A stretch of DNA of 64,000 nt from Ensifer oleiphilus (GTDB lineage Bacteria > Pseudomonadota > Alphaproteobacteria > Rhizobiales > Rhizobiaceae), in NCBI RefSeq assembly GCF_013371465.1, contig NZ_JABWDU010000002.1, positions 723,666 through 787,665 on the forward strand, written 5' to 3'. Shown piece after piece: positions 49,274 to 64,000 of this stretch. The notes under the pieces are model-generated. The model ran no database searches and had not been told where the DNA came from. It worked only from the letters and a program-made list of their open reading frames with translations. The number at the start of each line of letters is the position of its first letter. Within the stretch, counting starts at the first letter, position 1. The position numbers and the translations under genes were made by a program.

Positions 49274-50083
<810 letters not shown>

Positions 50084-51905: not shown

Positions 51906-52343
51906 TTACTTCGCCGCGTCGAGGCGATCGATCGCGTCGACATTGCCGGCAGACGGGCCGTTGGGGTCGAACTCGGAGGCAAGCCAGGCGTCGACGATCG
52001 ACTTGGCCAGCTCCGGCCCGATGACCCGCGCGCCCATGGTGATGATCTGGGCGTTGTTCGACTTGGCCGCACGCTCGGCGGAATAGGTGTCGTGGGTCAG
52101 CGCGGCGCGGATGCCCGGCACCTTGTTGGCCGAGATGCAGACGCCGATGCCGGTGCCGCAAAACAGGATGCCGCGCTCGTTCTCGCCATCGACGATGGTC
52201 TGCGCCAGCTTCTGCGACAGGTCGGCATAGAAGCCGGACTGGCTGAGGTCGCTGACTTCGAGGTCGGCCTTGCCCTTCAGGTGAGGGGCGATGACGTCGA
52301 GCAAGGGTTTGCCGGCGCTGTCTGCTCCGATTGCGATCTTCAT
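51906..52343 (-). CDS. rpiB: RpiB-type isomerase, D-erythrose-4-phosphate isomerase (EryI/RpiB)
   Basis: 145 residues from the ATG at 52343. RpiB/LacAB family with the active-site Cys in [16 protein letters not shown] and [21 protein letters not shown]. In Brucella the equivalent enzyme converts D-erythrulose-4-phosphate-derived tetrose to D-erythrose-4-phosphate in erythritol breakdown. Last gene of the operon, 40 bp after tpiB. The context (tpiB, eryC, eryB, eryA) supports the tetrose rather than the pentose role. Confidence 0.92.
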
Positions 52344-52383
52344 GATGGTTCCTTTCCGTCGTTGTTGGTTGGCGTGCGGAGGC

Positions 52384-53151
52384 TCAGATCGCCCCGGAGA
52401 CACGCTTCAGAATGTCGAGATAGCCGTTGACGTCCCAGGCGGAGCGGCCGATGAACAGGCCGTCGATATGCTTCTGGGCGATCAGTTCCTCACAATTGCC
52501 AGGGTTGACGCTGCCGCCGTAAAGCACGGGAACGCGCAGGCCGAGCGCGGCTTCCGCCACATCGGCGATGCGCTTGTGGCGCTCGTCGGCATAATCTGAC
52601 GTTGCCGGGATGCCATTGACGCCGATCGCCCAGACCGGCTCGTAGGCAAGCAGGATCGTCGCCTTGCGGGCATCGCCTTCCAGCAATTCCAGCGCGCCTT
52701 CCACCTGTCGCTTCAACACGGTATCCGCCACGCCCGCCTCGCGCTCGGCAAGCGTCTCGCCGATGCAGATCAGCGGCACGAGGCCATGGCGCACGGCCGC
52801 CGCCGTCTTCAGGCCGACGGTCCGGTCGGTCTCGCCGAAATGCTCGCGTCGTTCGCTGTGGCCGAGTTCGACGACGTCGAGGTTACAATCCCGAAGCATC
52901 ACCGGCGAAACCTCGCCGGTCCAGGCGCCGGCATCGTCCCAGTGCATGTTCTGCGCGCCGACCTTGACGCTGGTCTGAGCCAGCCGGTCCTTGACCTGGC
53001 GAACGGCGGTGAACGGCGGAATGACGAAACGCTGGATGCGCTCGTCGCGCGCTCCGTCGGCTGCTGCCAGCCCATCGGCAAAGACCATGGCCTCGACCAG
53101 CGTCTTGTTCATCTTCCAGCTTGTGCCCACCCAGAGCTGCGGCTTGTTCAT
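52384..53151 (-). CDS. tpiB: TIM-like D-tetrulose-4-phosphate isomerase (TpiB/EryH)
   Basis: 255 residues from the ATG at 53151. TIM-barrel of the triosephosphate isomerase family: catalytic His in [16 protein letters not shown], Glu in [10 protein letters not shown], phosphate loop [10 protein letters not shown]. The N-terminal motif is GTSWKMNK instead of GNWKMNG, so the substrate-contacting Asn is Ser. I recall this as a mark of the EryH/TpiA2 paralogues that act on four-carbon substrates. Overlaps the deoR-type gene by 4 bp (ATGA). Confidence 0.92.
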
Positions 53152-53933
53152 GCTGTCTCCGATACTTTTCGTGTGTCGACCTTGACCAGGCGGATGCCGG
53201 CGTCGCTCAGCGCGTCGGCATGCTCGTCCGCCACCTCGGCACCGGTCAGAACCGCGTCGAAGGCGTCGAGCCCGGTCAGGAAATGCAGGGCGGAACGCCC
53301 AAACTTGTCGTGATCCACAAGCAGATATTTGCGCGTGGCCGACTTCACCATCAGGCGCTTGGCCTGCACGACCTCCTGGTCCTGGTGGAAGGCGGCCGCT
53401 CCCGCGACTGCCGAACTGGAAAGGAAGGCGATATCGACGCGCAGCGAGCGTAGCGCCTCTTCCGTCACGATACCGAAGAAGCCGTTGAACTTCTTGCTGT
53501 ACTGGCCACCGAGCGCGATGACGTTGATGCCGGGCGCGCCGGACAGGCTGGCGATGACGCCGAGATTGTTGGTGATGACGGTGAGCGGCCGAATGTCCCT
53601 GATGCAGGCGGCGATGGCACCTGCCGTCGAGCTGTCGTCGATGAGGATGCTCTGCCCCGGCTCGATCAGACCGACCGCATATTCGGCGATCCGGTTCTTC
53701 TCGGCGGCGGCAATCTTCTCGCGATAACGGAAGTCGCTTTCGAACTGCGGGCTCGATTGGATCGAGGCGCCGCCATGGACCTTGCGCAACAGACCGGCCT
53801 GCTCGAGGTCGTCGAGGTCGCGATGCACGGTCATCTTGCTGACGCCGAAACGCAGCGAGAGATCCTCGACGGATGCCGTGCCGGCTTCCATCAGAACATC
53901 CATGATCGCCTGTCGCCTGTCTTCCGGCTTCAT
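53148..53933 (-). CDS. DeoR-family repressor of the polyol operon (EryR-like)
   Basis: 261 residues; the ATG at 53933 is preferred (GAGG 9 nt before), 53939 is possible. N-terminal DeoR helix-turn-helix (SVEDLSLRFGVSKMTVHRDLDDLEQAGLLRKVHGGA, about 20-55) and a C-terminal sugar-phosphate sensor domain (ILIDDSSTAGAIA, VITNNLGV). In Rhizobium leguminosarum a DeoR regulator precedes tpiB-rpiB in the erythritol locus; the same order is seen here. Confidence 0.9.
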   Translation of the reverse strand: MKPEDRRQAIMDVLMEAGTASVEDLSLRFGVSKMTVHRDLDDLEQAGLLRKVHGGASIQSSPQFESDFRYREKIAAAEKNRIAEYAVGLIEPGQSILIDDSSTAGAIAACIRDIRPLTVITNNLGVIASLSGAPGINVIALGGQYSKKFNGFFGIVTEEALRSLRVDIAFLSSSAVAGAAAFHQDQEVVQAKRLMVKSATRKYLLVDHDKFGRSALHFLTGLDAFDAVLTGAEVADEHADALSDAGIRLVKVDTRKVSETA

Positions 53934-54007
53934 CGCCATCCGCCTCGATCCGATGGCGCAAGGGCGCGTCACCACTTCCTGGAAGATAACATCAGAATGT
54001 TATATTT

Positions 54008-54049
54008 CAATATCAATGATGATACTTTGTGATATTTTAATGTGATATT
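54008..54049. promoter_or_regulatory. AT-rich operator candidate in front of the DeoR gene
   Basis: GTGATATT occurs twice (54029-54036 and 54042-54049) at 13-bp spacing, and an inverted AATATCA lies at 54009-54015. The 97-bp gap before the regulator is strikingly AT-rich compared with its surroundings. It probably contains a promoter for deoR-tpiB-rpiB and the site where the DeoR protein binds. One repeat overlaps the last codons of eryC. Confidence 0.6.
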
Positions 54050-54975
54050 AATGATCGATTGAAGCCGGTGTCGATATAGGGCTCCCAGAACTCCACGGAT
54101 TCCCGGATCATCTCGACGACGTTGTGATCCGTCGGCTCCCGCTCGCGGAAGGACAGCTCCAGGCAGATCTCGTTGTCGGTGCCGCCGCCGGCCTTGACCG
54201 CGTCGATCAGCTTTTCTGGCGTGATGCGGCCATCCTTGTTGTAGGCGGCGGTGAACGGCCAGTGCCCGCCCTTGTTCATCGACGACTGCTTGATGTGGAT
54301 GATCGGCGAACGCTCGGGAAAGGCACCCGCCCAAGCGTAGGGGTCGATGTCGGCAGGATTGTCGGATGTAACGTCGCCATGGTCGATATCCACCATCATC
54401 TTCATCGGGATCGGCAATCCCGCCTCGGCGAGCCGCCGGTCGAGCGCGCGGCACTCGGCGATCGTGTGGCCGAACTCGCGGCCGACCGACATCGGCTCCC
54501 AAAAGACATAGGAGAGACCGGCCGCCTTGCCGTGCTCCGCCACCTCGCGCCAGCAGTCGATGGCGATCTTCATCAGCTCCTCGCGCCGCGCCGGATCGTC
54601 AAAATCCTTCAGCGTGAAGATCGCGAACTGCGTGCCCATGCCGGAGGCGCCAAGCTCGGCGGAGATATCGGCAAACGTCTTGAACCAGTCGACATAGTAG
54701 CGCCGCACGTCCGGATCCGGGTGGCCGAAATGATTGAGCCTGCCATAGGGCCCGGTCATGCCCGAGGTGATCTTCACGCCGGTGCGGCCAAGCGCTGCCT
54801 TGAACTGGCGGATGGTCTTGGAGATCGTCGCCGCCGGCCAGCCCGGATTGACGAACTCGTGCGTCAGCTGCACGTGGCCGATGCGGATCTCTTCGCCGAT
54901 GGTCTCGATCAGGTCGTCGGGCTCGGCAAAGCGGTTGACCAGCGGATTTGTGTTGAGCGACAGCGTGAAAGCCAA
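54037..54975 (-). CDS. eryC: xylose-isomerase-superfamily enzyme, L-3-tetrulose-4-phosphate racemase (EryC-like)
   Basis: 312 residues starting with TTG at 54975 (AGGAG 7 nt before), 14 nt after the HAD gene. TIM-barrel of the sugar-phosphate isomerase/epimerase type. Metal-ligand candidates: Glu in YVFWEPMSVGRE, Asp/His in MMVDIDHGDVTSD, His in IIHIKQSS and Glu in EICLELSFRERE. In Brucella EryC converts L- to D-3-tetrulose-4-phosphate. The length and its place with eryA, eryB, tpiB and rpiB fit. Confidence 0.85.
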   Translation of the reverse strand: MAFTLSLNTNPLVNRFAEPDDLIETIGEEIRIGHVQLTHEFVNPGWPAATISKTIRQFKAALGRTGVKITSGMTGPYGRLNHFGHPDPDVRRYYVDWFKTFADISAELGASGMGTQFAIFTLKDFDDPARREELMKIAIDCWREVAEHGKAAGLSYVFWEPMSVGREFGHTIAECRALDRRLAEAGLPIPMKMMVDIDHGDVTSDNPADIDPYAWAGAFPERSPIIHIKQSSMNKGGHWPFTAAYNKDGRITPEKLIDAVKAGGGTDNEICLELSFREREPTDHNVVEMIRESVEFWEPYIDTGFNRSLISH

Positions 54976-54989
54976 GGCCTTGCTCCTGA

Positions 54990-55829
54990 CTACCAGAGAA
55001 ATTTCGGGAGGATGAAATCGGGAGTAGTGCCATGCTCGGCAAAGAGCATTTGCCGCTCCGCGTCGGAGGCATGCTCCAGTATCCCGGTGGTCACCAGCAC
55101 GGAGCCGAGGCCCGCACCCGCCGCCCCGGCGATATCGTGCTCGATGCTGTCGCCGATGGCGCAGACGCGCGACGGGTCGGGATGATCGAGATAGTCGAGC
55201 GCGAAGTCGTAGATGTCGGTGAAGGGCTTGCCGATCCAGCGGACCTTGCCGCCGATGTCCTCGTAAAGCTCGGCGATCCGCCCGGCGCCGAAGGCCGTTC
55301 CGGTCTTCGTCAACATGACCTTGTCGGGGTTGGTGCAGAGGCACGGCACGCCGCGCCGCGCCGCCGGCGCCAGCAACGCCTCGTAGTGCGACAGCGGCAG
55401 GACATCGCCTTCGCTTGCTGCCAGCAGCACAAAGTCCGCCTCTTCACCCCATTGGGTGCGCTCAAGATCGAGCCCTTTCAGCGCCGAGAGGTCGTCGTCA
55501 CGGCTGACCAAAAGGCACTTGCGGGGCAGCCCGCTTGCCTGCCTGCCCTCGCGCTTCAGGATCTGCCAGGCAACCTCCCCCGACGTCAGGAACCAGTCCC
55601 AACTGCCGGCAACGAATCCGAGATCGACCAGGCGGCGATCGTTTTCCGCCGAGCGCTTGCCGGAGTTGGAGAGAATGATGATGCGCTTGCCCTGATCTTT
55701 CAGCCGCACCAGCGTCTCGGCGGCGCCGGGATAGGGTCCGCGACCATCGCGCAGCACGCCGAACTGGTCGATCAGGAAGGCGTCGTAGCGATCGGCTATA
55801 TCGGCGAGACCGGCGATGTCGGTTGTCAT
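54990..55829 (-). CDS. HAD-superfamily class IIA protein (TIGR01459 type)
   Basis: 279 residues from the ATG at 55829, overlapping the FGGY gene stop by 4 bp. Class IIA cap arrangement. Motif I is FLIDQFGVLRDG: the nucleophile Asp is present but the usual +2 Asp acid/base is Phe. Motif II is IIILSNSGKR, then WIGKPFTDIYDFAL and CAIGDSIEHDIAGAAGAG. Activity may be reduced or directed at another leaving group. In this operon it could remove phosphate from a dead-end sugar phosphate. Confidence 0.85.
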   Translation of the reverse strand: MTTDIAGLADIADRYDAFLIDQFGVLRDGRGPYPGAAETLVRLKDQGKRIIILSNSGKRSAENDRRLVDLGFVAGSWDWFLTSGEVAWQILKREGRQASGLPRKCLLVSRDDDLSALKGLDLERTQWGEEADFVLLAASEGDVLPLSHYEALLAPAARRGVPCLCTNPDKVMLTKTGTAFGAGRIAELYEDIGGKVRWIGKPFTDIYDFALDYLDHPDPSRVCAIGDSIEHDIAGAAGAGLGSVLVTTGILEHASDAERQMLFAEHGTTPDFILPKFLW

Positions 55830-57112
55830 AATACACCTGCCTGTCTTGCACCCATGAGCGCCAGCCGCGCCGTGCCGGCTGCGGCCTCTTCGGAGCGCAC
55901 CGTCAGGAACGGCACGCAGAGCTTGCGCGCGCGGATCGCCGACCACACGGCGTTTCTGGCGCCACCACCAACGCTGCGGATGGAGCCAAGCTTCGGCCCG
56001 CCAAGCGCCGTCAGCCTGTCATAGGCAAGGCTTTCGACGCCGGCGATGCCCTCGAAGATCGCCTTCAGAAACACGGCATCATCCTCAGGCCGCGGTGTCA
56101 TACGCGGCTCGAAATTCGGATCAGCGATGGGAAAACGCTCGCCCGGTTTGGTCAACGGATAATAGTCGAGTCCGGTATCGCTGGCCGGATCGATGCGGAC
56201 CGATAGCGCGTCGATTTGCTCGCTGGAGAAATGGGCGGCGAGAACGACGCCACCCGTGTTCGACGCTCCGCCGGCCAGCCACATATCGCCGATGCGATGG
56301 CTGTAGAGCCCGTATTCCGGCGCAAACAGCGGTCGGTCGGAAAGCACCTTCACTGTCAAGGTCGTGCCAAGCGCGGTCACACCATCGCCCGGGCGATCTG
56401 CACCGGTCGCCAGGAACGAAGCGCAGCCATCGGTAGTGCCGGCAATGACGACCACCTCGCGCGAAAGCCCGAAGGCCTCCGCAGCAGCCGGCGAGATCGT
56501 CGCGACTGGCTCGCCGGCCGGCAGCACCTCCGGCAACAGCCCGGTGCGCGCCCCGGTCTTTTCGATCCAATCGGGCCAGCATCGCGCAATCGGATCGTAA
56601 CCGGTCTTCAAGGCATTGTTCTCGTCGGACACATCGTAAAGCCCGGTAAAATGCCCGGCCAGCCAATCGGCCTGGTGGATGACGCGGAAGGCACCCGGCA
56701 CCGATTGGAATGTCAGCATCTTGGCAAGCCCGGAGGTCGCGCCATGGGCGGCACTTTCCTTCGGCGCATGGGCGGCAATCGCCGCAAGGATTGCATCGTC
56801 GACAACCGGATCGTTGTACATCATCGGGCGAGCAAGCGGCGCACCGTCGGCGGCCACCGGCAGCATCGTTCCCGAGGTGCCGTCGATGCTGATCGCCCGG
56901 ATCACACCGCGATCGACCGCGGCGAGCACGTCGCCAAGTGCAGCCTGCACCGCCTTCCACCAACCGATAGGATCGCGGTGATCGTCCGAGAAGGCAGAAA
57001 GCCTGGCGGCGCCAGAGGCGGCAATCGCGCCATCGGATGCCATCGCGACGGCGCGCGCACCCGAGGTGCCGATATCGATACCGACCACGAGAGCGTCGTT
57101 TCTTGCGTTCAT
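55826..57112 (-). CDS. second FGGY-family carbohydrate kinase
   Basis: 428 residues from the ATG at 57112, overlapping both neighbours by 4 bp. FGGY motifs: VVGIDIGTSGARAVAM (ATP), ISIDGTSGTMLPV, catalytic Asp region in GTTDGCASFLATG, and VGGGARNAVW near the C-terminus. Xylulokinase/ribulokinase-like but shorter than the usual ~490-520. It is not needed for erythritol breakdown, which already has EryA, so it should phosphorylate a second polyol or ketose. Confidence 0.87.
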   Translation of the reverse strand: MNARNDALVVGIDIGTSGARAVAMASDGAIAASGAARLSAFSDDHRDPIGWWKAVQAALGDVLAAVDRGVIRAISIDGTSGTMLPVAADGAPLARPMMYNDPVVDDAILAAIAAHAPKESAAHGATSGLAKMLTFQSVPGAFRVIHQADWLAGHFTGLYDVSDENNALKTGYDPIARCWPDWIEKTGARTGLLPEVLPAGEPVATISPAAAEAFGLSREVVVIAGTTDGCASFLATGADRPGDGVTALGTTLTVKVLSDRPLFAPEYGLYSHRIGDMWLAGGASNTGGVVLAAHFSSEQIDALSVRIDPASDTGLDYYPLTKPGERFPIADPNFEPRMTPRPEDDAVFLKAIFEGIAGVESLAYDRLTALGGPKLGSIRSVGGGARNAVWSAIRARKLCVPFLTVRSEEAAAGTARLALMGARQAGVL

Positions 57113-58161
57113 TGCAGCGCCTGCCCTGCCCGGTTGAGTTTCTGGCGATATTTCTCCGCGTCCCAACCGAGCAGCTCCGCATTTTCGGCGGCGCTCAGGT
57201 AGCGCAGCCGCCCGCTCGCCGGGATGCGGGCCGTAACGTCGGCAAGGCAGCGGGCCATGGCGAGCGCACCGGCGGAAATGCCCTTCTCGACCAGCACGCC
57301 CTTTCCGGGAAAGAGCAGAAGCGGCGGCAGGCTTTCGCCCCGCTCTCTCCGGGTGGTCTCGATCGAAGCGGCCGTCTCGCCCGGTGCCGCGATGACGGAC
57401 CCCTTGCCGAGGAAGATGACATGGTCGGGATAGAGGCTGCCGCCGGCCGCCATCCGGCAGCTTTCCAGATCGGTTGCAACCGCATGCAGCCTGATATCGT
57501 CGGGCAGGCAATAGCCACTGTCGACCGCAAGCCGCGACAACGCCGCAAGATCGGCTGATGGCGCCGACCGTCGCTGCGTCGTCAACCGGCGGGAGACATC
57601 GGTCAGGAGGATCGCCGCATCGGCGACCGTCTCGGCGGCAACGGCAAGGCCGTGATTGCCGAGGATCAGCACGGAGGTCTTCTCCTGCATTCGCTCGGCA
57701 ATCGCTCGGGCTAGCGGCAGGCCGGGGCGCGCGTAGGGCACGAAGACATGCGGGATGCCGGCGAGACGCTCGGCGGCAATGGCGGCACCGTTTGTCTGGA
57801 CCGCTGTCGCGATGGTTTCAACGCAATGAACGTGGATCACCACCTTCTGCGGCATCAGCGCATGCACTGTCGTCTCGATCGACGGCCGGAGGCCGGACGG
57901 GTTCATCTCTGATATGACGTAGTCCTGCGCCTTCTCGGTAGCAGGATCGTTACGCTCCAGCGCGTCGAGCAACGGGTCGAGCGCCACCGGCACCATGACG
58001 TCGCGCTGCCGGGCATGCGCAAGCCAGAGGCCGGAGGCCTTGATCCAGAGCGTGCCGAGTTCCTTGATCGACGTGTTGCCGCCCGCCCCCTGCACCAGCA
58101 GCGGATCGGCGCCGACACGCGCCGAGATATCCAGCAAGGCCTCGAATTCCAGACTGCGCAT
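57109..58161 (-). CDS. class II aldolase/adducin-family protein with C-terminal extension
   Basis: 350 residues from the ATG at 58161 (GGGAGAG upstream). The N-terminal aldolase domain (about 1-210) has GAGGNTSIKELGTLWIKASG, zinc ligands HxH in KVVIHVHCVETIATA and a third His in LGNHGLAV. The extra ~130 residues form a second region (YPDHVIFLGKGSVIAA) known in some rhizobial members. It probably splits a ketose-1-phosphate (retro-aldol to DHAP plus aldehyde) or epimerises one. Coupled to the second kinase. Confidence 0.86.
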   Translation of the reverse strand: MRSLEFEALLDISARVGADPLLVQGAGGNTSIKELGTLWIKASGLWLAHARQRDVMVPVALDPLLDALERNDPATEKAQDYVISEMNPSGLRPSIETTVHALMPQKVVIHVHCVETIATAVQTNGAAIAAERLAGIPHVFVPYARPGLPLARAIAERMQEKTSVLILGNHGLAVAAETVADAAILLTDVSRRLTTQRRSAPSADLAALSRLAVDSGYCLPDDIRLHAVATDLESCRMAAGGSLYPDHVIFLGKGSVIAAPGETAASIETTRRERGESLPPLLLFPGKGVLVEKGISAGALAMARCLADVTARIPASGRLRYLSAAENAELLGWDAEKYRQKLNRAGQALQ

Positions 58162-58173
58162 TCCCACTCTCCC

Positions 58174-59706
58174 TCAGGCCGCCACTTGCTGGCGTTCCAG
58201 CCAGCCGGTGAAAGCCTGCCGTTCGGCCGGCGTCATGTGCAGGCCATGTTTCGTCCGACGCTCCAGGAGATCGTCCGCGGTCATGGCCCATTCGTTCTCC
58301 ATCAGGAAGCGCGCCTCGCGCTCGCGAAACAGCGGACTGAAGACGGCGCCGAGGTCGTCGAGCGACGTGGCATTGCCGATCAGATCATGCGTACGCGTAC
58401 CGTAGAGCCGCGCATAGTGCTTGGCGAGATCCGCCGTCAGCCAGCGATAGCGGGCCCTCAGATCCCCAAGGAATTGCTCGAAATCGGCATTGGCCATGTC
58501 GCCGCCGGGCAGATGTGCTTTTGCCGTCCAGGCCGCACCCATCTGAGGGAAGAACGGCTTCAGCCGCTCCAGCGCATGCTCGGACAGTTTGCGAAACGTC
58601 GTGATCTTGCCGCCGAAGACTGAGAGCAGCGGCGCCTGCCCATTGGCGGCATCGACCTCGAAGATATAGTCGCGCGTCACCGCCGAGGGGTTCTCGGCAT
58701 TGTCGTCATAGAGCGGGCGCACGCCCGAGAAGGAATGCACGATATCGTCCTCGGTCAGCTGCTGCTTGAAATAGCGGTTCACCGATTTCAAGAGATAGGC
58801 GATCTCGTTGCTATCGGCAGATACATCCTCGGGACGTCCCTCGTAGGGAATGTCGGTCGTGCCGATCAGCGCCAGATCGTTCTGGTAGGGATTGATGAAG
58901 ATCACCCGCTTGTCCGGGTTCTGCACCAGGTAGGCCTGCCGCCCCTCCCAGAATTTCGGCACGACGATATGGCTGCCCTTGACCAGCCGCACGCTGCGGC
59001 TGGAGTTGAGCCCGGCGACCCTGCCAATGATGTCGTTGACCCATGGCCCGGCCGTGTTGACGACCGAGCGCGCCCTGACCTCGGACCTCACGCCGGTGCG
59101 CAGGTCCGTCATCTCCACGTGCCAGAGGCCGTCGATCCGGCGAATGGCGCTGCAGGCCGTCCGGGTCAGCACCCGCGCGCCCTTCTTCTGCGCATCGAGC
59201 GCGTTGAGCACGACGAGCCGGGCGTCATCCACCCAACAGTCGGAATATTCGAAGGCCTTGCGATAGTCCCGCTTGATCGGCGCGCCCTCGGGCGCAGTCC
59301 TGAGATCAAGGCTGCGCGTGCCCGGCAGGCGCTTGCGGCCGCCAAGATGATCGTAGAGGAAGAGCCCGAGTCGCACGAGCCAGGCGGGCCTGTCGGCCGG
59401 ATTGTGCGGCAGCACGAAACGCATCGGCCAGATGATGTGCGGGGCGGACGAGAGCAGCACCTCGCGCTCGATCAGCGCCTCGCGCACCAGCCGGAACTCG
59501 TAATATTCGAGATAGCGCAAGCCGCCATGCACCAGCTTGCCCGAGCGCGAGCTCGTGCCCTGCGCCAGATCGTCCTTCTCGCACAAAAGCACCGAGAGCC
59601 CCCGCCCGGCGGCATCGCGCGCAATACCGGCACCGTTGACGCCGCCGCCGACCACGAAAAGATCATATAGTCCGGTCTCGGAACCCACGGTCTTGCCTCC
59701 CGTCAT
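58174..59706 (-). CDS. eryB: FAD-dependent L-erythritol-4-phosphate dehydrogenase (EryB), GlpD family
   Basis: 510 residues; the ATG at 59706 overlaps the preceding stop by one base (TGATG). GlpD-like: FVVGGGVNGAGIARDAAGRG, TSSRSGKLVHGGLRYLEY, ALIGTTDIPYEG and FSGVRPLYDD. In the Brucella/rhizobial erythritol pathway EryB oxidises L-erythritol-4-phosphate to L-3-tetrulose-4-phosphate. The same sequence class includes glycerol-3-phosphate dehydrogenases; the eryA, eryC, tpiB and rpiB context favours EryB. Confidence 0.85.
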   Translation of the reverse strand: MTGGKTVGSETGLYDLFVVGGGVNGAGIARDAAGRGLSVLLCEKDDLAQGTSSRSGKLVHGGLRYLEYYEFRLVREALIEREVLLSSAPHIIWPMRFVLPHNPADRPAWLVRLGLFLYDHLGGRKRLPGTRSLDLRTAPEGAPIKRDYRKAFEYSDCWVDDARLVVLNALDAQKKGARVLTRTACSAIRRIDGLWHVEMTDLRTGVRSEVRARSVVNTAGPWVNDIIGRVAGLNSSRSVRLVKGSHIVVPKFWEGRQAYLVQNPDKRVIFINPYQNDLALIGTTDIPYEGRPEDVSADSNEIAYLLKSVNRYFKQQLTEDDIVHSFSGVRPLYDDNAENPSAVTRDYIFEVDAANGQAPLLSVFGGKITTFRKLSEHALERLKPFFPQMGAAWTAKAHLPGGDMANADFEQFLGDLRARYRWLTADLAKHYARLYGTRTHDLIGNATSLDDLGAVFSPLFREREARFLMENEWAMTADDLLERRTKHGLHMTPAERQAFTGWLERQQVAA

Positions 59707-60743
59707 CAGCACGGATTGACCGGCGGCAGGCCGGCAATGTAGCGGCGCACCTCTTCGGCAGCCATCTCGGCGGCAAACGTAACGGTGCGTACCGACGCGC
59801 CGGCGATGTGCGGCGTCAGCGTCACGTTCTGAAGCTGCAGCAGCGGCCAGTCCTCCGGCACCGGCTCCACCGAAAAGGTCTCGAGCATTGCCGCCGACAG
59901 GTGGCCGCTCACCAGGTTTTCGTAGAGCGCGTCATAGTCGCAAAGCGGCCCGCGCGCCGTGTTGACGAAGATGGCTCCGGGTTTCATCTTCGCGAAGGTC
60001 TCGGCATTCATCATGTTGCGCGTTTCCTCGGTGACGCGCGGATGCAGCGTCACGACGTCGGAGCGCGACAGGAGTCTGTCGAGCGACACCTGCTCAACGC
60101 CGGCGTTGAGGTCGTCGGCGGAAAGCTGCACATAGGGGTCGTGCACCAGCACCTTCGTGCCGAAGGCCCTGAGCAGCCGGACGACCTTGGTGCCGATATT
60201 GCCATAGCCGATGACGCCGACGGTCAATTCCGAGAGTTCGCGGCCGGTGCGGTCTGCGCGGTAGAGATCGCCGCGCCACTCGCCCTTGCGCAGCGCCTCG
60301 TGGCCGGTGCGGATCAGCCGCGTCTCGGCGAGGATCGCGCCGAGCGTAAATTCGGCAACGGCGCTGGCATTGCGGCCGGGCGTGTTGACGACGCTGATAC
60401 CGGCGTCGCGCGCAGCCGCCATATCGATATTGACAGGCCCGCCGCGCGAGACGGCGACGAGCTTCAGCCCGGGAAGCGCGGTCAGCATGCCGCGCGACAA
60501 GGGCGCGAGCTGCGTCACCAGGATTTCGGCGTCGCCGATGAACTCGATGATATCGTCGGCCTTGCCCAGATACTCCTTCAGGCCGTCCATGCCTTCGACG
60601 GCATAACCGTGCTCCATCGGCACATCCGGCCAGGGCAGTTCGAGAGTGCGGATGTCGTGGCCGTCGCCGCTTGCTTCGACGATCTTGTCGCGAAACACGT
60701 CCGGCAGCATGAACCGGTCGCCGATGATGGCTATCTTCTTCAT
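59706..60743 (-). CDS. D-isomer-specific 2-hydroxyacid dehydrogenase
   Basis: 345 residues from the ATG at 60743, which overlaps the eryA stop (ATGA). NAD-binding GVIGYGNIGTKVVRLLRAFG; catalytic Arg in FVNTARGPLCDYDALYE, the Glu region ETFSVEPVPEDWP and His in VTLTPHIAGAS are all present. It is phosphoglycerate-dehydrogenase-like. No step of the known erythritol route uses such an enzyme, so it probably belongs to an additional branch producing or consuming a 2-hydroxy acid. Confidence 0.88.
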   Translation of the reverse strand: MKKIAIIGDRFMLPDVFRDKIVEASGDGHDIRTLELPWPDVPMEHGYAVEGMDGLKEYLGKADDIIEFIGDAEILVTQLAPLSRGMLTALPGLKLVAVSRGGPVNIDMAAARDAGISVVNTPGRNASAVAEFTLGAILAETRLIRTGHEALRKGEWRGDLYRADRTGRELSELTVGVIGYGNIGTKVVRLLRAFGTKVLVHDPYVQLSADDLNAGVEQVSLDRLLSRSDVVTLHPRVTEETRNMMNAETFAKMKPGAIFVNTARGPLCDYDALYENLVSGHLSAAMLETFSVEPVPEDWPLLQLQNVTLTPHIAGASVRTVTFAAEMAAEEVRRYIAGLPPVNPC

Positions 60744-62317
60744 TTCAGTTTTTCCTGTTGTGGTCCCGAGGCAGCCCCTTCCGAAAGGGCGTGCCACACG
60801 GGGCGAAGCGCAATGCGCGACTGCTGGTAGGAGGGGAAAAGGCCGTCGTAACGGCGCGCCAGCGCCTCGTCGGCCGGCTCGGCGGCACGCTGGTGCGGCG
60901 ACACCCAGTCACGCACGCAGTCGGCCATCGAGGGATAGATGCCGAGTGACACGGCGGCGATCATGGCAGCACCCGCCGCCCCCGCCTCCTCGCGTTCGCT
61001 GGTCTGGACGCTGGCGCCGAGAGCACCACCGAGAATGCGCCGAAGCGAGGCGCTGCGTGCAGCCCCGCCGGTCAGCCGAATCCGGCCGGGAAGCGGCCCC
61101 ATCTCGGCGTAGCAATCGCGCGCGGCCATGGCGAGCCCGTCGAACACCGCCTTCACCATGTCGCCGAAACCATGGGTGATCGAAAGCCCGACGAAGGAGG
61201 CGCGCGCCGAAGCGTCGACGAAGGGCCCGCGCTCGCCGGCTTCCGAGATATAGGGCTGGAACATGAGCGAGCTATCCTTGGCCTCAGCCAGCCAGCCGTC
61301 GACGTGGGACAGAAGCTCAGCCTTGGTCTTCTCGACGCCCATGCCCTTCAGGAGCCCGCCCGCGACCGAGAGGATCCAGTCGATGTTCAGCGTTGCCGCC
61401 ATGTTCGACTGCATCTGCGCGTAGGTGTCGGCAATCGGCATGCACATGGTGTAGCCGGTGAGATCGCGGTTGAGCCGCACGTCGTCGGCGCTGGTCGCAA
61501 GCCGCATGTGCATGCCTGTCGAGCCGATGATCGAGCAGCCGGTGTCGGTGCCGGGATCGTAGAGCCCGGCGCCAAGGGCCGTGCACACCACGTCGACATA
61601 GCCGAGCACCACCGGTGTGCCCGTGGGAAGGCCGGTGGCAGCAGCCGCATCCGTCGAGAGCAGATGATGCGATATCGCCCCGTCGACGATCTCCGGCAGG
61701 AAATGCTTGAGCTTTTGCAGGCCGAGAAAACGGATGACGTCGTCGTTGTAGCTGCGGGTGCGGAAGTTGCCGAAGGTGAAATTGGCTTCGGACGGATCCG
61801 TCGCACGCACCTGCGTCAACTTGAAATAGAGCCAGTCCTTGCAGTGGAACGTGGTCGCGACACCCGACAGCATTTCCGGCGCGTTGTCGCTCATCCAGCG
61901 CAGTTGCGCGCCCTGCTGGCAGGCGGCAAGGCCGGAGCCTGTGCTGGCAAAGCGCTCGACATCGCCGCTGTCGCCGCGCAGGCGCTCGACCGTATCGCCG
62001 GCGCGCGCGTCGAGCCAGAGCCAGCCCTTGCCGATCGGCTCACCCGCCTTGTCGATCATCCAGGTGCCATCGCCCTGGCCGGTCACCGCAATGGCGGCAA
62101 CGCGGCCCGGGAGGTTCTCGATCTTGGCCGACAGCTCCTTCAGGGTGGTGACCGTATCGGCCCAGGTGCGGTTGAGATCCTGGACGCTTCCGGTCCTGCC
62201 GACGGCTTCATAGGAATTCGACACCGCGGCCATGGCAAGCTGCCGCCCGCCAAGGTCGAAGGCCACCGACTTGATGACCGACGTTCCCGCATCGATGCCG
62301 ATGAGGATATCGCGCAT
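60740..62317 (-). CDS. eryA: erythritol kinase EryA (FGGY family)
   Basis: 525 residues; ATG at 62317 overlaps the upstream ATPase stop by one base (TGATG). FGGY motifs: MRDILIGIDAGTSVIKSVAF, AVTGQGDGTWMID, GLQKLKHFLPEIVDG, GCSIIGSTGMHMRL, and RLTGGAARSASLRRILGGAL. The N-terminal third is very close to what I recall of Brucella EryA (DATDPSEANFTFGNFRTR-like segment present). It makes L-erythritol-4-phosphate from erythritol. Confidence 0.85.
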   Translation of the reverse strand: MRDILIGIDAGTSVIKSVAFDLGGRQLAMAAVSNSYEAVGRTGSVQDLNRTWADTVTTLKELSAKIENLPGRVAAIAVTGQGDGTWMIDKAGEPIGKGWLWLDARAGDTVERLRGDSGDVERFASTGSGLAACQQGAQLRWMSDNAPEMLSGVATTFHCKDWLYFKLTQVRATDPSEANFTFGNFRTRSYNDDVIRFLGLQKLKHFLPEIVDGAISHHLLSTDAAAATGLPTGTPVVLGYVDVVCTALGAGLYDPGTDTGCSIIGSTGMHMRLATSADDVRLNRDLTGYTMCMPIADTYAQMQSNMAATLNIDWILSVAGGLLKGMGVEKTKAELLSHVDGWLAEAKDSSLMFQPYISEAGERGPFVDASARASFVGLSITHGFGDMVKAVFDGLAMAARDCYAEMGPLPGRIRLTGGAARSASLRRILGGALGASVQTSEREEAGAAGAAMIAAVSLGIYPSMADCVRDWVSPHQRAAEPADEALARRYDGLFPSYQQSRIALRPVWHALSEGAASGPQQEKLK

Positions 62318-63441
62318 CAGGCGAGCTCCACGCCATGGCTGATCGCCTTGCCGCTGTCACCGTCGAAAACGTGCAGGCTCGACGGGTCGAGCCGGATGCC
62401 GATCGGCTGGCCGACGGCAAGCTCGGTGCGGTCGTGCTCGACCAGCACCATGGTACCGCCGGCAAAGTCGGCAGCGATATGGGTCTGGTCGCCCAGCCAC
62501 TGGTTGACCGCCACCCGGCCGGAAACCCCGTCGGCGCTGCGGCGCACCGCGTATGGCCTTATCCCGAGCACCACCTTCTGCCGTTTCATCAGCGCGTCAC
62601 GCACCGCATGGGAGAAATCCGATGCCGCATAGTCGAGCCTGACGCCATCCTTGAGGCCGAACGAGACCTTGTTCTCGGAACCGGCGATGCTTGCCTCGAA
62701 CACGTTCATCGGCGGCTCGCCGACAAAGGTGCCGGTGAAGAGGTTGGCCGGGCGCTCCTTGATCTTCTGCGGCGTGTCGAACTGCTGCAGCACCCCGCCC
62801 TCCATGACGGCGATGCGGTCGGCAAGCGCGTTCGCCTCCGTCTGGTCGTGGGTGACGAGGATCGCCGTCAGCCCGCGCTCCTTGATGTAGTGCTTGATGC
62901 GGCCGCGCAGCACGGCGCGCAGCTGCGGCTCGAGCTGGCCCATCGGCTCGTCAAGCAGGTGCAGGCTGGCGTCGCGGATCAGGGCTCGGCCGAGCGAGGC
63001 GCGCTGCTGCTGGCCGCCGGAAATCGAGCTCGGATAGCGTCCGAGAATGTCTTCGATTTCCAAGAGCTTGGCGATACCGGCCACCTTGTCGTCGACGACA
63101 CTCTGCGACAGCTTCGACGCCTTGAGCGCAAAGGCGATGTTCTCGCGCACAGTCAGCGGCGGGTAGAGCGAATAGCCCTCGAAAGCCATGGCAACGTTGC
63201 GGCGCACCGGCGCGAGGGTCTGCACCTCGCGTCCGCCCAGCGAGATCGTGCCGCGCGACACCGCCTCGAAGCCGGCGATCATGCGCAATGTCGAGGTCTT
63301 GCCGCAACCGGACGAGCCGAGAAGCGCGATGATCTCGCCCTTTCCGACATCCATGTTGAGCTTCTTGACGGCGTGCACGCCGTAATCGACGGGGCCATAG
63401 AACTTGTCGACGTCCCGGATCAAAAGAGCGGTGTCGTTCAT
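62317..63441 (-). CDS. ABC transporter ATPase, GlpT/UgpC-like, second of a pair
   Basis: 374 residues from the ATG at 63441, overlapping the first ATPase by 4 bp. Walker A GSSGCGKTS, signature SISGGQQQRASL, Walker B LHLLDEP, H-loop VTHDQTEANAL. The Q-loop reads AMAFEGYSLYP, so the usual Gln is Glu, and the D-loop reads GQLEP instead of SxLD. Two adjacent ATPase genes resemble glpS-glpT of the rhizobial glycerol importer. The permeases and binding protein are not in the window and must lie beyond 64000. Confidence 0.88.
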   Translation of the reverse strand: MNDTALLIRDVDKFYGPVDYGVHAVKKLNMDVGKGEIIALLGSSGCGKTSTLRMIAGFEAVSRGTISLGGREVQTLAPVRRNVAMAFEGYSLYPPLTVRENIAFALKASKLSQSVVDDKVAGIAKLLEIEDILGRYPSSISGGQQQRASLGRALIRDASLHLLDEPMGQLEPQLRAVLRGRIKHYIKERGLTAILVTHDQTEANALADRIAVMEGGVLQQFDTPQKIKERPANLFTGTFVGEPPMNVFEASIAGSENKVSFGLKDGVRLDYAASDFSHAVRDALMKRQKVVLGIRPYAVRRSADGVSGRVAVNQWLGDQTHIAADFAGGTMVLVEHDRTELAVGQPIGIRLDPSSLHVFDGDSGKAISHGVELA

Positions 63442-64000
63442 GCCGCTTCTCCATTGCGCTTGGATTCTCTGTCGACGCGCGGCAGAAGCCGGCCGCTCGC
63501 CTTGTCGAAGAGGAAGGCCTGGGCGCCGTTGACGGCGATATGGGCAGGCCCTGCCACCGGCCCCGGCGTTCCGGCCGGGCGCGAAACCAGGATTTCCCGG
63601 CCGCGCGCGGTCATCGCCAAAGTCACGGTCTTTTCGTTGAGAGGCGTTTCCGCCTCGACCGTCACGGGAATGGCACCCGGCGCCGATGCGTCGACAAAGA
63701 CGATGGTTTCCGGGCGAAGACCGAGAACACACGACTTGCCGGAGACATCGCCGTCATAGTCGGCAAGCCGCACCCGGACATTGGAAAGCTCGACGAAGAC
63801 GCCCTCACCGCCCTTTTGCGGCGTCACGTCGAGAAGATTGATCGTCGGATCGCCGAAGAGACGGGCAATCTCGATATCGGCGGGCGCGTTGTAGATCTGC
63901 TGCGGCGTGCCGATCTGGCGGATGCGGCCCTGCGACATCACGGCGATCCGGTCGCCGAGCGCCATGGCCTCCTTGTAGTCCTGGGTGACGTAGACGACGG
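63438..64000 (-). CDS. ABC transporter ATPase, GlpS-like, first of a pair (C-terminal part)
   Basis: The gene runs off the right edge; the last ~187 codons are visible. They cover the end of the nucleotide-binding domain (VVYVTQDYKEAMALGDRIAVM) and a TOBE-like C-terminal domain. The switch (H-loop) His is Gln here (VTQD). Together with the altered Q-loop of its partner this suggests an asymmetric heterodimeric ATPase. The product overlaps the next gene by ATGA. Confidence 0.85.
   Translation of the reverse strand, partial: VVYVTQDYKEAMALGDRIAVMSQGRIRQIGTPQQIYNAPADIEIARLFGDPTINLLDVTPQKGGEGVFVELSNVRVRLADYDGDVSGKSCVLGLRPETIVFVDASAPGAIPVTVEAETPLNEKTVTLAMTARGREILVSRPAGTPGPVAGPAHIAVNGAQAFLFDKASGRLLPRVDRESKRNGEAA

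Follow-up and report, generated by a model that had tools for sequence, protein, structure and literature searches.

An erythritol locus with four additional enzymes

The window analyzed here, a stretch of 64,000 nucleotides from the 6.76 Mb genome of Ensifer oleiphilus (contig NZ_JABWDU010000002.1, positions 723,666 to 787,665), holds from position 51906 to its end the enzyme part of an erythritol/adonitol/L-arabitol locus of the Sinorhizobium meliloti type, a kind of locus that has already been published. Gene calls made from a list of open reading frames (ORFs), Pfam, NCBIfam and a reading of the start regions fill this part with twelve ORFs, all on the minus strand. An initial annotation had described at least 12 tightly packed minus-strand genes including EryA, EryB, EryC, TpiB/EryH and RpiB/EryI, and the ORFs, the Pfam and NCBIfam matches and the junctions bear it out. 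Its inventory stands as listed, apart from the DeoR-family regulator EryR between EryC and TpiB, which it left unnamed, and the continuation of the locus beyond the window.

Four of the enzymes are additional to the erythritol route. RbtA (59706..60743) belongs to the D-2-hydroxyacid dehydrogenase family (PF02826/PF00389) and is proposed to be an NAD(P)-dependent pentitol-phosphate dehydrogenase. LalA (57109..58167) is a class II aldolase (PF00596), proposed to act on L-xylulose-1-phosphate. RbtB (55826..57112) is a second FGGY kinase, with AtXK-1 and SePSK as its nearest solved relatives, and a proposed D-ribulose 5-kinase. RbtC (54990..55829) is an HAD-IIA protein (TIGR01459, 247.8 bits against a cut-off of 103.75) and a proposed D-ribulose-1-phosphate phosphatase.

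The remaining genes match their syntenic counterparts in S. fredii NGR234 and S. meliloti Ak57 (identities given in that order). They include the polyol kinase EryA (60740..62317; FGGY_N/FGGY_C; 85% and 83%), the FAD-dependent polyol-phosphate dehydrogenase EryB of the GlpD family (58174..59706; PRK13369, 861.4 bits; 86% and 87%) and EryR (53148..53933; DeoRC and HTH_DeoR; 85% and 84%). The erythritol branch further comprises the tetrulose-phosphate racemase/isomerase EryC (54037..54975; PF01261, AP_endonuc_2; 89% to both), TpiB/EryH of the triosephosphate-isomerase family (52384..53151; PF00121; 82% and 84%) and RpiB/EryI, a LacAB_rpiB-family isomerase (51906..52343; PF02502; 87% and 88%). 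Two ATPases of an ABC-type multiple polyol transporter precede them: an MptE-like protein (62317..63441; ABC_tran, TOBE_2 and OB_MalK; 87% and 90%) and an MptD-like one (63438..64000; 84% and 86%), which was recognized by synteny and tblastn and runs on to 64556, past the window.

The genes are closely coupled, with overlaps of 4 bp between MptD and MptE, 1 bp between MptE and EryA and 4 bp between EryA and RbtA. EryB has candidate starts at ATG 59706 and GTG 59712, giving overlaps with RbtA of 1 and 7 bp, respectively. A gap of 6 bp separates EryB from LalA; LalA and RbtB, and RbtB and RbtC, overlap by 4 bp each, and RbtC is followed after 14 bp by EryC, starting at TTG 54975. Beyond EryC come a 103-bp gap to EryR, a 4-bp overlap of EryR and TpiB and a 40-bp gap between TpiB and RpiB; eryR-tpiB-rpiB may be a separate unit.

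Correspondence to the published locus type

Both content and order of these genes recur on pNGR234b of NGR234 and on pSymB of Ak57, at 73-95% protein identity, and the arrangement is therefore not a chance one. EryA, EryB, EryC, EryD, EryR, TpiB and the Mpt transporter are all present together, the window end cutting the locus so that mptC, mptB, mptA and eryD come next just outside. When species genomes were searched with the second kinase, the nearest of 67 loci was that of Ensifer adhaerens Lc04, at 94% identity, in a set that may omit records very close to the genome of the window. Mutants of the S. meliloti locus were reportedly described by Geddes and Oresnik in 2012. The locus type was described by Geddes, Hausner and Oresnik in 2013 (PMC3599248), with 17 genes in S. 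meliloti, a number also found in Ak57 once its annotation is completed by homology; there, EryA takes erythritol, adonitol and L-arabitol, and lalA-rbtABC is reported to serve the latter two. In S. meliloti the order is eryD-mptABCDE-eryA-rbtA-fucA1-eryB-lalA-rbtBC-eryC-eryR-tpiB-rpiB; the window agrees with it in genes and order, but like NGR234 it lacks fucA1 between rbtA and eryB. The second polyol branch suggested by the initial annotation is thus real, though already known: its extra genes correspond to the adonitol/L-arabitol genes of this locus type.

The rbt and lal names were set by exclusion and order. Once the named genes are set aside, rbtA falls to the 2-hydroxyacid dehydrogenase and lalA-rbtB-rbtC to the contiguous aldolase-kinase-HAD trio, in the same order as in the S. 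meliloti-type locus. SMc01617 is an HAD protein in a metabolic reconstruction (PMC3272708); we infer the assignment of each individual name. The route through EryA, EryB, EryC, TpiB and RpiB is common to the window and to the eryABCD-type locus of Brucella and Rhizobium leguminosarum, which lacks lalA-rbtABC and has an EryEFG-type transporter instead of Mpt (PMC3599248).

In Ak57 the HAD gene is in two pieces (locus L006, about 16.2-17.1 kb), as are several locus genes in Rhizobium sp. RCAM05350 (L151, 3-12 kb), reflecting frameshifts or sequencing errors. A ribH2-like gene (6,7-dimethyl-8-ribityllumazine synthase) is found in the vicinity of the ery locus in both Ensifer and S. meliloti: at 49553-50083 on the plus strand of the window, near 8 kb in L155 and L156, at 1190-1627 in L169 and at about 25.6 kb in Ak57. 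It adjoins eryB in two genomes with a separate eryB and occurs in 15 of 49 EryB-bearing and none of six EryB-less named loci, numbers too small for certainty; it may supply flavin for the FAD enzyme EryB.

A proposed pentitol branch

The existence of a pentitol branch is a published fact, and we infer its enzyme steps and the substrate of each extra enzyme. In the scheme that we favor and consider likely, if not strongly so, the locus would work through RbtA, LalA, RbtC and RbtB as follows. The Mpt transporter would import the polyol and EryA would phosphorylate one end of it, an entry shared by all three substrates. Erythritol phosphate would then pass through EryB, EryC, TpiB/EryH and RpiB/EryI to erythrose-4-phosphate, as described for Brucella (PMC5468441). 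On the pentitol side, RbtA would oxidize the carbon beside the phosphate to give a pentulose-1-phosphate, namely D-ribulose-1-phosphate from adonitol and L-xylulose-1-phosphate from L-arabitol. LalA, as a RhaD-like aldolase, would cleave L-xylulose-1-phosphate to dihydroxyacetone phosphate (DHAP) and glycolaldehyde. RbtC would remove the phosphate from D-ribulose-1-phosphate, and RbtB would rephosphorylate the D-ribulose at C5, delivering D-ribulose-5-phosphate to the pentose phosphate pathway.

The stereochemistry, as we reason from Fischer forms, would suit this division. Only one end of L-arabitol has the three-carbon arrangement of erythritol; phosphorylation at that end and oxidation of the next carbon would yield L-xylulose-1-phosphate, and the identical reaction on adonitol would yield D-ribulose-1-phosphate. 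At C3 and C4 the former would be configured as L-rhamnulose-1-phosphate and the latter as L-fuculose-1-phosphate. A review assigns RhaD to an L-xylulose-1-phosphate and FucA to a D-ribulose-1-phosphate pathway, both ending in DHAP and glycolaldehyde (PMC6443609), and a haloarchaeal FucA-family enzyme is a ribulose-1-phosphate aldolase (PMC9700705). Those pathways make the ketose-1-phosphate by an isomerase and a kinase, whereas the window, as proposed, would do so by a polyol kinase and a dehydrogenase.

LalA consists of a RhaD-like N-terminal domain and a family-specific C-terminal region (about residues 187-352), for which no match to Pfam or to a RhaD-type profile was found. The C-terminal extension pointed out in the initial annotation is hence real and belongs to the LalA family as aligned. 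The idea that it is a second domain of the RhaDA type was dropped, as residues 6-186 alone align, in this case against a three-row profile. A zinc-binding His triad, a catalytic Glu and a phosphate-loop GN, which we take to be the class II aldolase motifs, are conserved in 91 of 91 distinct aligned rows (residue counts for LalA, RbtB and RbtC are of distinct rows, the raw rows including overlapping loci). By BLASTP, LalA matches RhaD at an E value of 1.5e-10 (29% over 191 residues), and the better of two FucA proteins compared reaches only 0.1. LalA is therefore closer to RhaD than to these two FucA proteins, which fits L-xylulose-1-phosphate as its substrate.

Co-occurrence of the extra genes

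In a survey of 297 genomes of the order we used E-value limits of 1e-60 for RbtB, RbtA and EryC, 1e-100 for EryA and 1e-40 for LalA, with RbtC outside the gene set, and obtained matches in 28 genomes for RbtB, 29 for EryA, 17 for RbtA, 34 for LalA and 23 for EryC. Of the 29 EryA genomes, 15 have an RbtA orthologue and 14 do not; RbtB occurs in 14 of the former and 4 of the latter, LalA shows the identical split and EryC the opposite trend (9 of 15 versus 13 of 14). The Fisher value for co-occurrence within EryA genomes is 0.0004, which overstates independence because the genomes are related. The extra genes thus tend to co-occur across the order, a comparison that the initial annotation had proposed. 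In the four genomes with the trio and no RbtA, the trio lies apart from EryA, in a rhamnose-type cluster (G085, G209) or beside a second EryC (G080, G115).

In addition, 67 named loci were selected with RbtB patterns; the frequency with which RbtB is missing can be judged from the 297-genome survey but not from them. The 55 of these that contain EryA have RbtA in all 55, RbtB in 55 (by selection), LalA in 54, RbtC in 50, EryB in 49 and FucA and EryC in 35 each.

LalA-RbtB-RbtC trios also occur inside rhamnose-type clusters with RhaK, RhaI and an ABC transporter (L007, L045, L046, L127) and, in further genomes, beside other sugar ABC transporters. RbtA was not seen in the rhamnose-type trio loci, in which an isomerase and a kinase would make the ketose-1-phosphate. 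A LalA-like protein without an RbtB match is found in 8 of the 34 LalA genomes (G036, G099, G130, G225, G227, G244, G261 and G278).

RbtA as a candidate pentitol-phosphate dehydrogenase

In the survey of the order, 15 of the 17 RbtA matches (at least 59% identity), which are all 15 orthologue cases, immediately follow EryA; the other two (49%) belong to an operon type with a FucA-type aldolase and another FGGY kinase. A second survey, of 398 genomes of the phylum at an E value of 1e-50, found RbtA in five, all near an FGGY kinase. Three-gene runs of kinase, RbtA and FucA occur in Shinella sp. H4-D48, after Mpt genes, and in Paracoccus seriniphilus, and an EryA-RbtA-FucA run is present in genome G197, where the best EryB match is only 49%. 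RbtA is the only oxidoreductase within these runs. Against the NCBIfam model for ribulose-1-phosphate aldolase the FucA from the Shinella run reaches 185 bits, and against L-fuculose-phosphate aldolase models 222 and 209 bits, all under the cut-offs. The position of RbtA after EryA and its status as sole oxidoreductase in the short runs point to a phosphorylated polyol as its substrate.

EryB, on the other hand, is separable from the pentitol genes. It is absent from six of the 55 loci. Five of these genomes have an EryB of 70-71% identity elsewhere: three as part of an EryD-EryA-EryB-EryC run, and two together with EryC, EryR, TpiB and RpiB, where the 19 kb read contained no EryA. The sixth, a metagenome-assembled genome, has no EryB match. 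In these genomes the erythritol set (EryB and EryC, with EryR, TpiB and RpiB where seen) stands apart from the pentitol set (RbtA, LalA, RbtB and RbtC), and EryA is either common to the two or doubled. The idea that genomes with EryB-less loci lack EryB accordingly failed for five of these six; genome G087, a further candidate for being EryB-free, was left uncounted, its best match of 55% not being clearly under the locus-borne EryB of 56% in G286. The universality of RbtA, the separability of EryB and the short kinase-RbtA-FucA runs led us to propose RbtA as the pentitol-phosphate dehydrogenase.

A different possibility is that EryB oxidizes all three polyol phosphates and that RbtA carries out another pentitol step, for example an epimerizing reduction or the reduction or oxidation of the two-carbon product. 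EryB is widely retained, and in 14 of the 55 loci it occurs without EryC, just as the third locus class of Geddes et al. has EryA and EryB but no EryC (PMC3599248); EryB may therefore also serve pentitols. Its separate unit in five genomes, the presence of RbtA rather than EryB in every EryA locus and the three-gene runs argue the other way, and we regard this alternative as unlikely, though deserving of serious consideration.

The family membership of RbtA raises a further possibility. RbtA matches PF02826 with 191 bits (cut-off 25.1) and PF00389 with 62.9 bits (cut-off 24.6), and it keeps Arg, Glu and His stretches (NTARG, VEP and TPH) that we take to be the catalytic motifs of D-2-hydroxyacid dehydrogenases. 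They would suit a sugar-acid branch, raised in the initial annotation, in which kinase 2 and the aldolase work on an acid-derived substrate and RbtA on a 2-hydroxy or 2-oxo acid. This finds no support in the position of RbtA directly after EryA in all 15 cases or in the three-gene runs: the dehydrogenase tracks a polyol kinase. Moreover, no sugar-acid kinase or dehydratase is present among eleven Pfam-scanned proteins, a loop close to the presumed carboxylate site is altered in the FGGY-linked group (see below) and published work ties the genes to adonitol and L-arabitol (PMC3599248). We consider such a branch very unlikely.

A proposed relocation of the phosphate: RbtB and RbtC

RbtB aligns nearly end to end with SePSK and AtXK-1 (PDB 5htn, 5htr; E values 2.7e-90 and 1.5e-91, respectively). 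The SePSK residues D8, T11, S72, K163 and D221 are kept in 94 of 94 RbtB rows, but S222 in only nine, Gly taking its place in 85. SePSK responded more to D-ribulose than to L-ribulose, D-xylulose, L-xylulose or glycerol (PMC4880283), and by its sequence RbtB probably resembles a D-ribulose kinase. A second EryA was rejected, identity being just 24%, and so was a plain xylulokinase, on the profile matches and the nearest solved sequences.

RbtC retains the nucleophile Asp and, in 85 of 85 rows, the motif III Lys and the motif IV Asp pair. It accompanies RbtB in the 50 EryA loci that have it. In four of five FGGY-linked actinobacterial loci, those of Streptomyces KN37, NBC_01727 (a partly divergent set) and BHT-5-2 and of Nonomuraea (L174, L175, L178, L208), a histidine phosphatase accompanies RbtA-, RbtB- and EryA-related genes; in the two loci compared directly, the RbtB-like kinase has 34-35% identity to RbtB and the EryA-related kinase about 31% to EryA. 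The fifth, from Rubrobacter (L179), has no histidine phosphatase, and two HAD hydrolase genes are annotated in the stretch. A phosphatase of another family in the place of RbtC supports a dephosphorylation-rephosphorylation step.

Alternatively, RbtB and RbtC could act together in metabolite repair, rescuing D-ribulose or removing a wrong sugar phosphate, with the main flux passing through the aldolase. Motif I of the HAD protein RbtC is atypical, its second Asp being replaced by F, Y or W in 84 of 84 ungapped rows, and the cellular role of SePSK, from a cyanobacterium, and AtXK-1, from a plant, was unknown in 2016 (PMC4880283). The constancy of RbtC beside RbtB, its replacement by a different phosphatase in the actinobacterial loci and the published grouping of rbtB and rbtC with the adonitol/L-arabitol genes (PMC3599248) speak for a regular step, and we hold repair to be rather improbable. 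Action of the HAD protein on a misphosphorylated product, as suggested in the initial annotation, is hence possible and not preferred. That annotation also had kinase 2 and the aldolase jointly phosphorylate and split a ketose or polyol of four or five carbons: a five-carbon ketose derivative is plausible and DHAP a likely product, but the two enzymes probably do not form one route, because kinase 2 resembles a D-ribulose kinase beside an HAD protein and the aldolase would be an alternative exit.

Besides the retained hydroxyacid dehydrogenase motifs, the altered motif I of RbtC and the EryB loci without EryC, several observations weigh against the route through RbtA, LalA, RbtC and RbtB. We know of no polyol-phosphate dehydrogenase in the hydroxyacid dehydrogenase family; a literature search found none either, though its result is weak, most subscription papers being outside its reach. 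The Shinella region has further oxidoreductase genes downstream, past a GntR gene. LalA weakly matches a solved fuculose-1-phosphate aldolase (2opi, E value 0.0002). RbtC was not found in five of the 55 loci, four of which keep RbtB (L134, L137, L138, L150) and one of which is cut by a contig end (L140); locus L120 is without LalA, and G197 has EryA and RbtA without an RbtB or LalA match. Finally, Mesorhizobium ciceri was scored as having LalA, RbtB and RbtC while lacking RbtA (PMC3599248), and AtXK-1, as close to RbtB as SePSK is, responded little to D-ribulose (PMC4880283).

A wider group of kinase-linked dehydrogenases

RbtA shares family and Arg, Glu and His motifs with D-3-phosphoglycerate dehydrogenase (PDB 1wwk and relatives) but differs in a loop, which is of the G-x-G type in those enzymes and presumably holds the carboxylate in known D-2-hydroxyacid dehydrogenases. 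In the window RbtA this loop reads SRGGPVN, and the G-x-G type is not found; the RbtA type can be written as [STA]R[GA]x(3)N. In an alignment of 64 rows (L160 repeating L080), Arg occupies the position of the first Gly in all 51 FGGY-linked rows (50 of them distinct) and in none of the 13 unlinked rows, where the residue is Gly (11 rows), Ser (one) or Glu (one). Eight of the unlinked rows are from the genome of the window; their loci span about 3.5 kb, so that a kinase lying beyond about 1.5 kb would go unnoticed. Seven additional regions agree, two being linked with Arg (one nearly identical to an earlier Klebsiella region) and five unlinked without it. Plasmid records (25 opened of 60 listed, 101 having matched) gave 15 linked with Arg and 10 with neither; two more matched records correspond to L005 and L006, both linked with Arg. 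Every locus read with the RbtA-type loop thus has an FGGY kinase gene nearby. The Arg occurs in none of the three top solved relatives of RbtA with alignments shown.

On a tree of 62 rows, which omits L160 and the window RbtA (L189, represented by L085 at 98%), two label changes account for the FGGY-linked rows, where shuffled labels need 12 on average. The second change arises because L194, an unlinked row on a very long branch, is placed among the linked ones; one change suffices in 8% of bootstrap trees. RbtA relatives near FGGY kinases extend to Rhodobacterales, Streptomyces, Nonomuraea, Klebsiella, Rubrobacter and haloarchaea. We tentatively suggest, as something that may well hold though we stop short of calling it likely, that the FGGY-kinase-linked, loop-Arg members of the 2-hydroxyacid dehydrogenase family in bacteria and haloarchaea oxidize polyol phosphates and not hydroxyacids. 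With an EryA-related kinase, a phosphatase of the HAD or histidine type and a SePSK-like kinase, they would constitute a phosphorylation-oxidation-dephosphorylation-rephosphorylation route from pentitols to pentulose-5-phosphates, or one ending early through a FucA- or RhaD-type aldolase.

A second operon type (L171, L172, L173, L158, L159, L166) combines an RbtA relative of about 50% identity with a FucA-type aldolase and an FGGY kinase; in L171-L173 it continues with acetolactate-synthase-like and molybdopterin enzymes and has CoA-transferases upstream. In genome G197 a second set, diverged from the EryA-RbtA-FucA run, lies about 7 kb away from it (L080, 10-3274) and again combines a 2-hydroxyacid dehydrogenase, an FGGY kinase and a class II aldolase.

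Implications

The cluster itself extends a published locus type to another Ensifer. If RbtA is indeed a polyol-phosphate dehydrogenase, a set of annotated 2-hydroxyacid dehydrogenases in bacteria and haloarchaea would have to be renamed, operons combining an FGGY kinase, a 2-hydroxyacid dehydrogenase and a class II aldolase could be interpreted as polyol pathways, and the SePSK-type kinases would gain a testable function.

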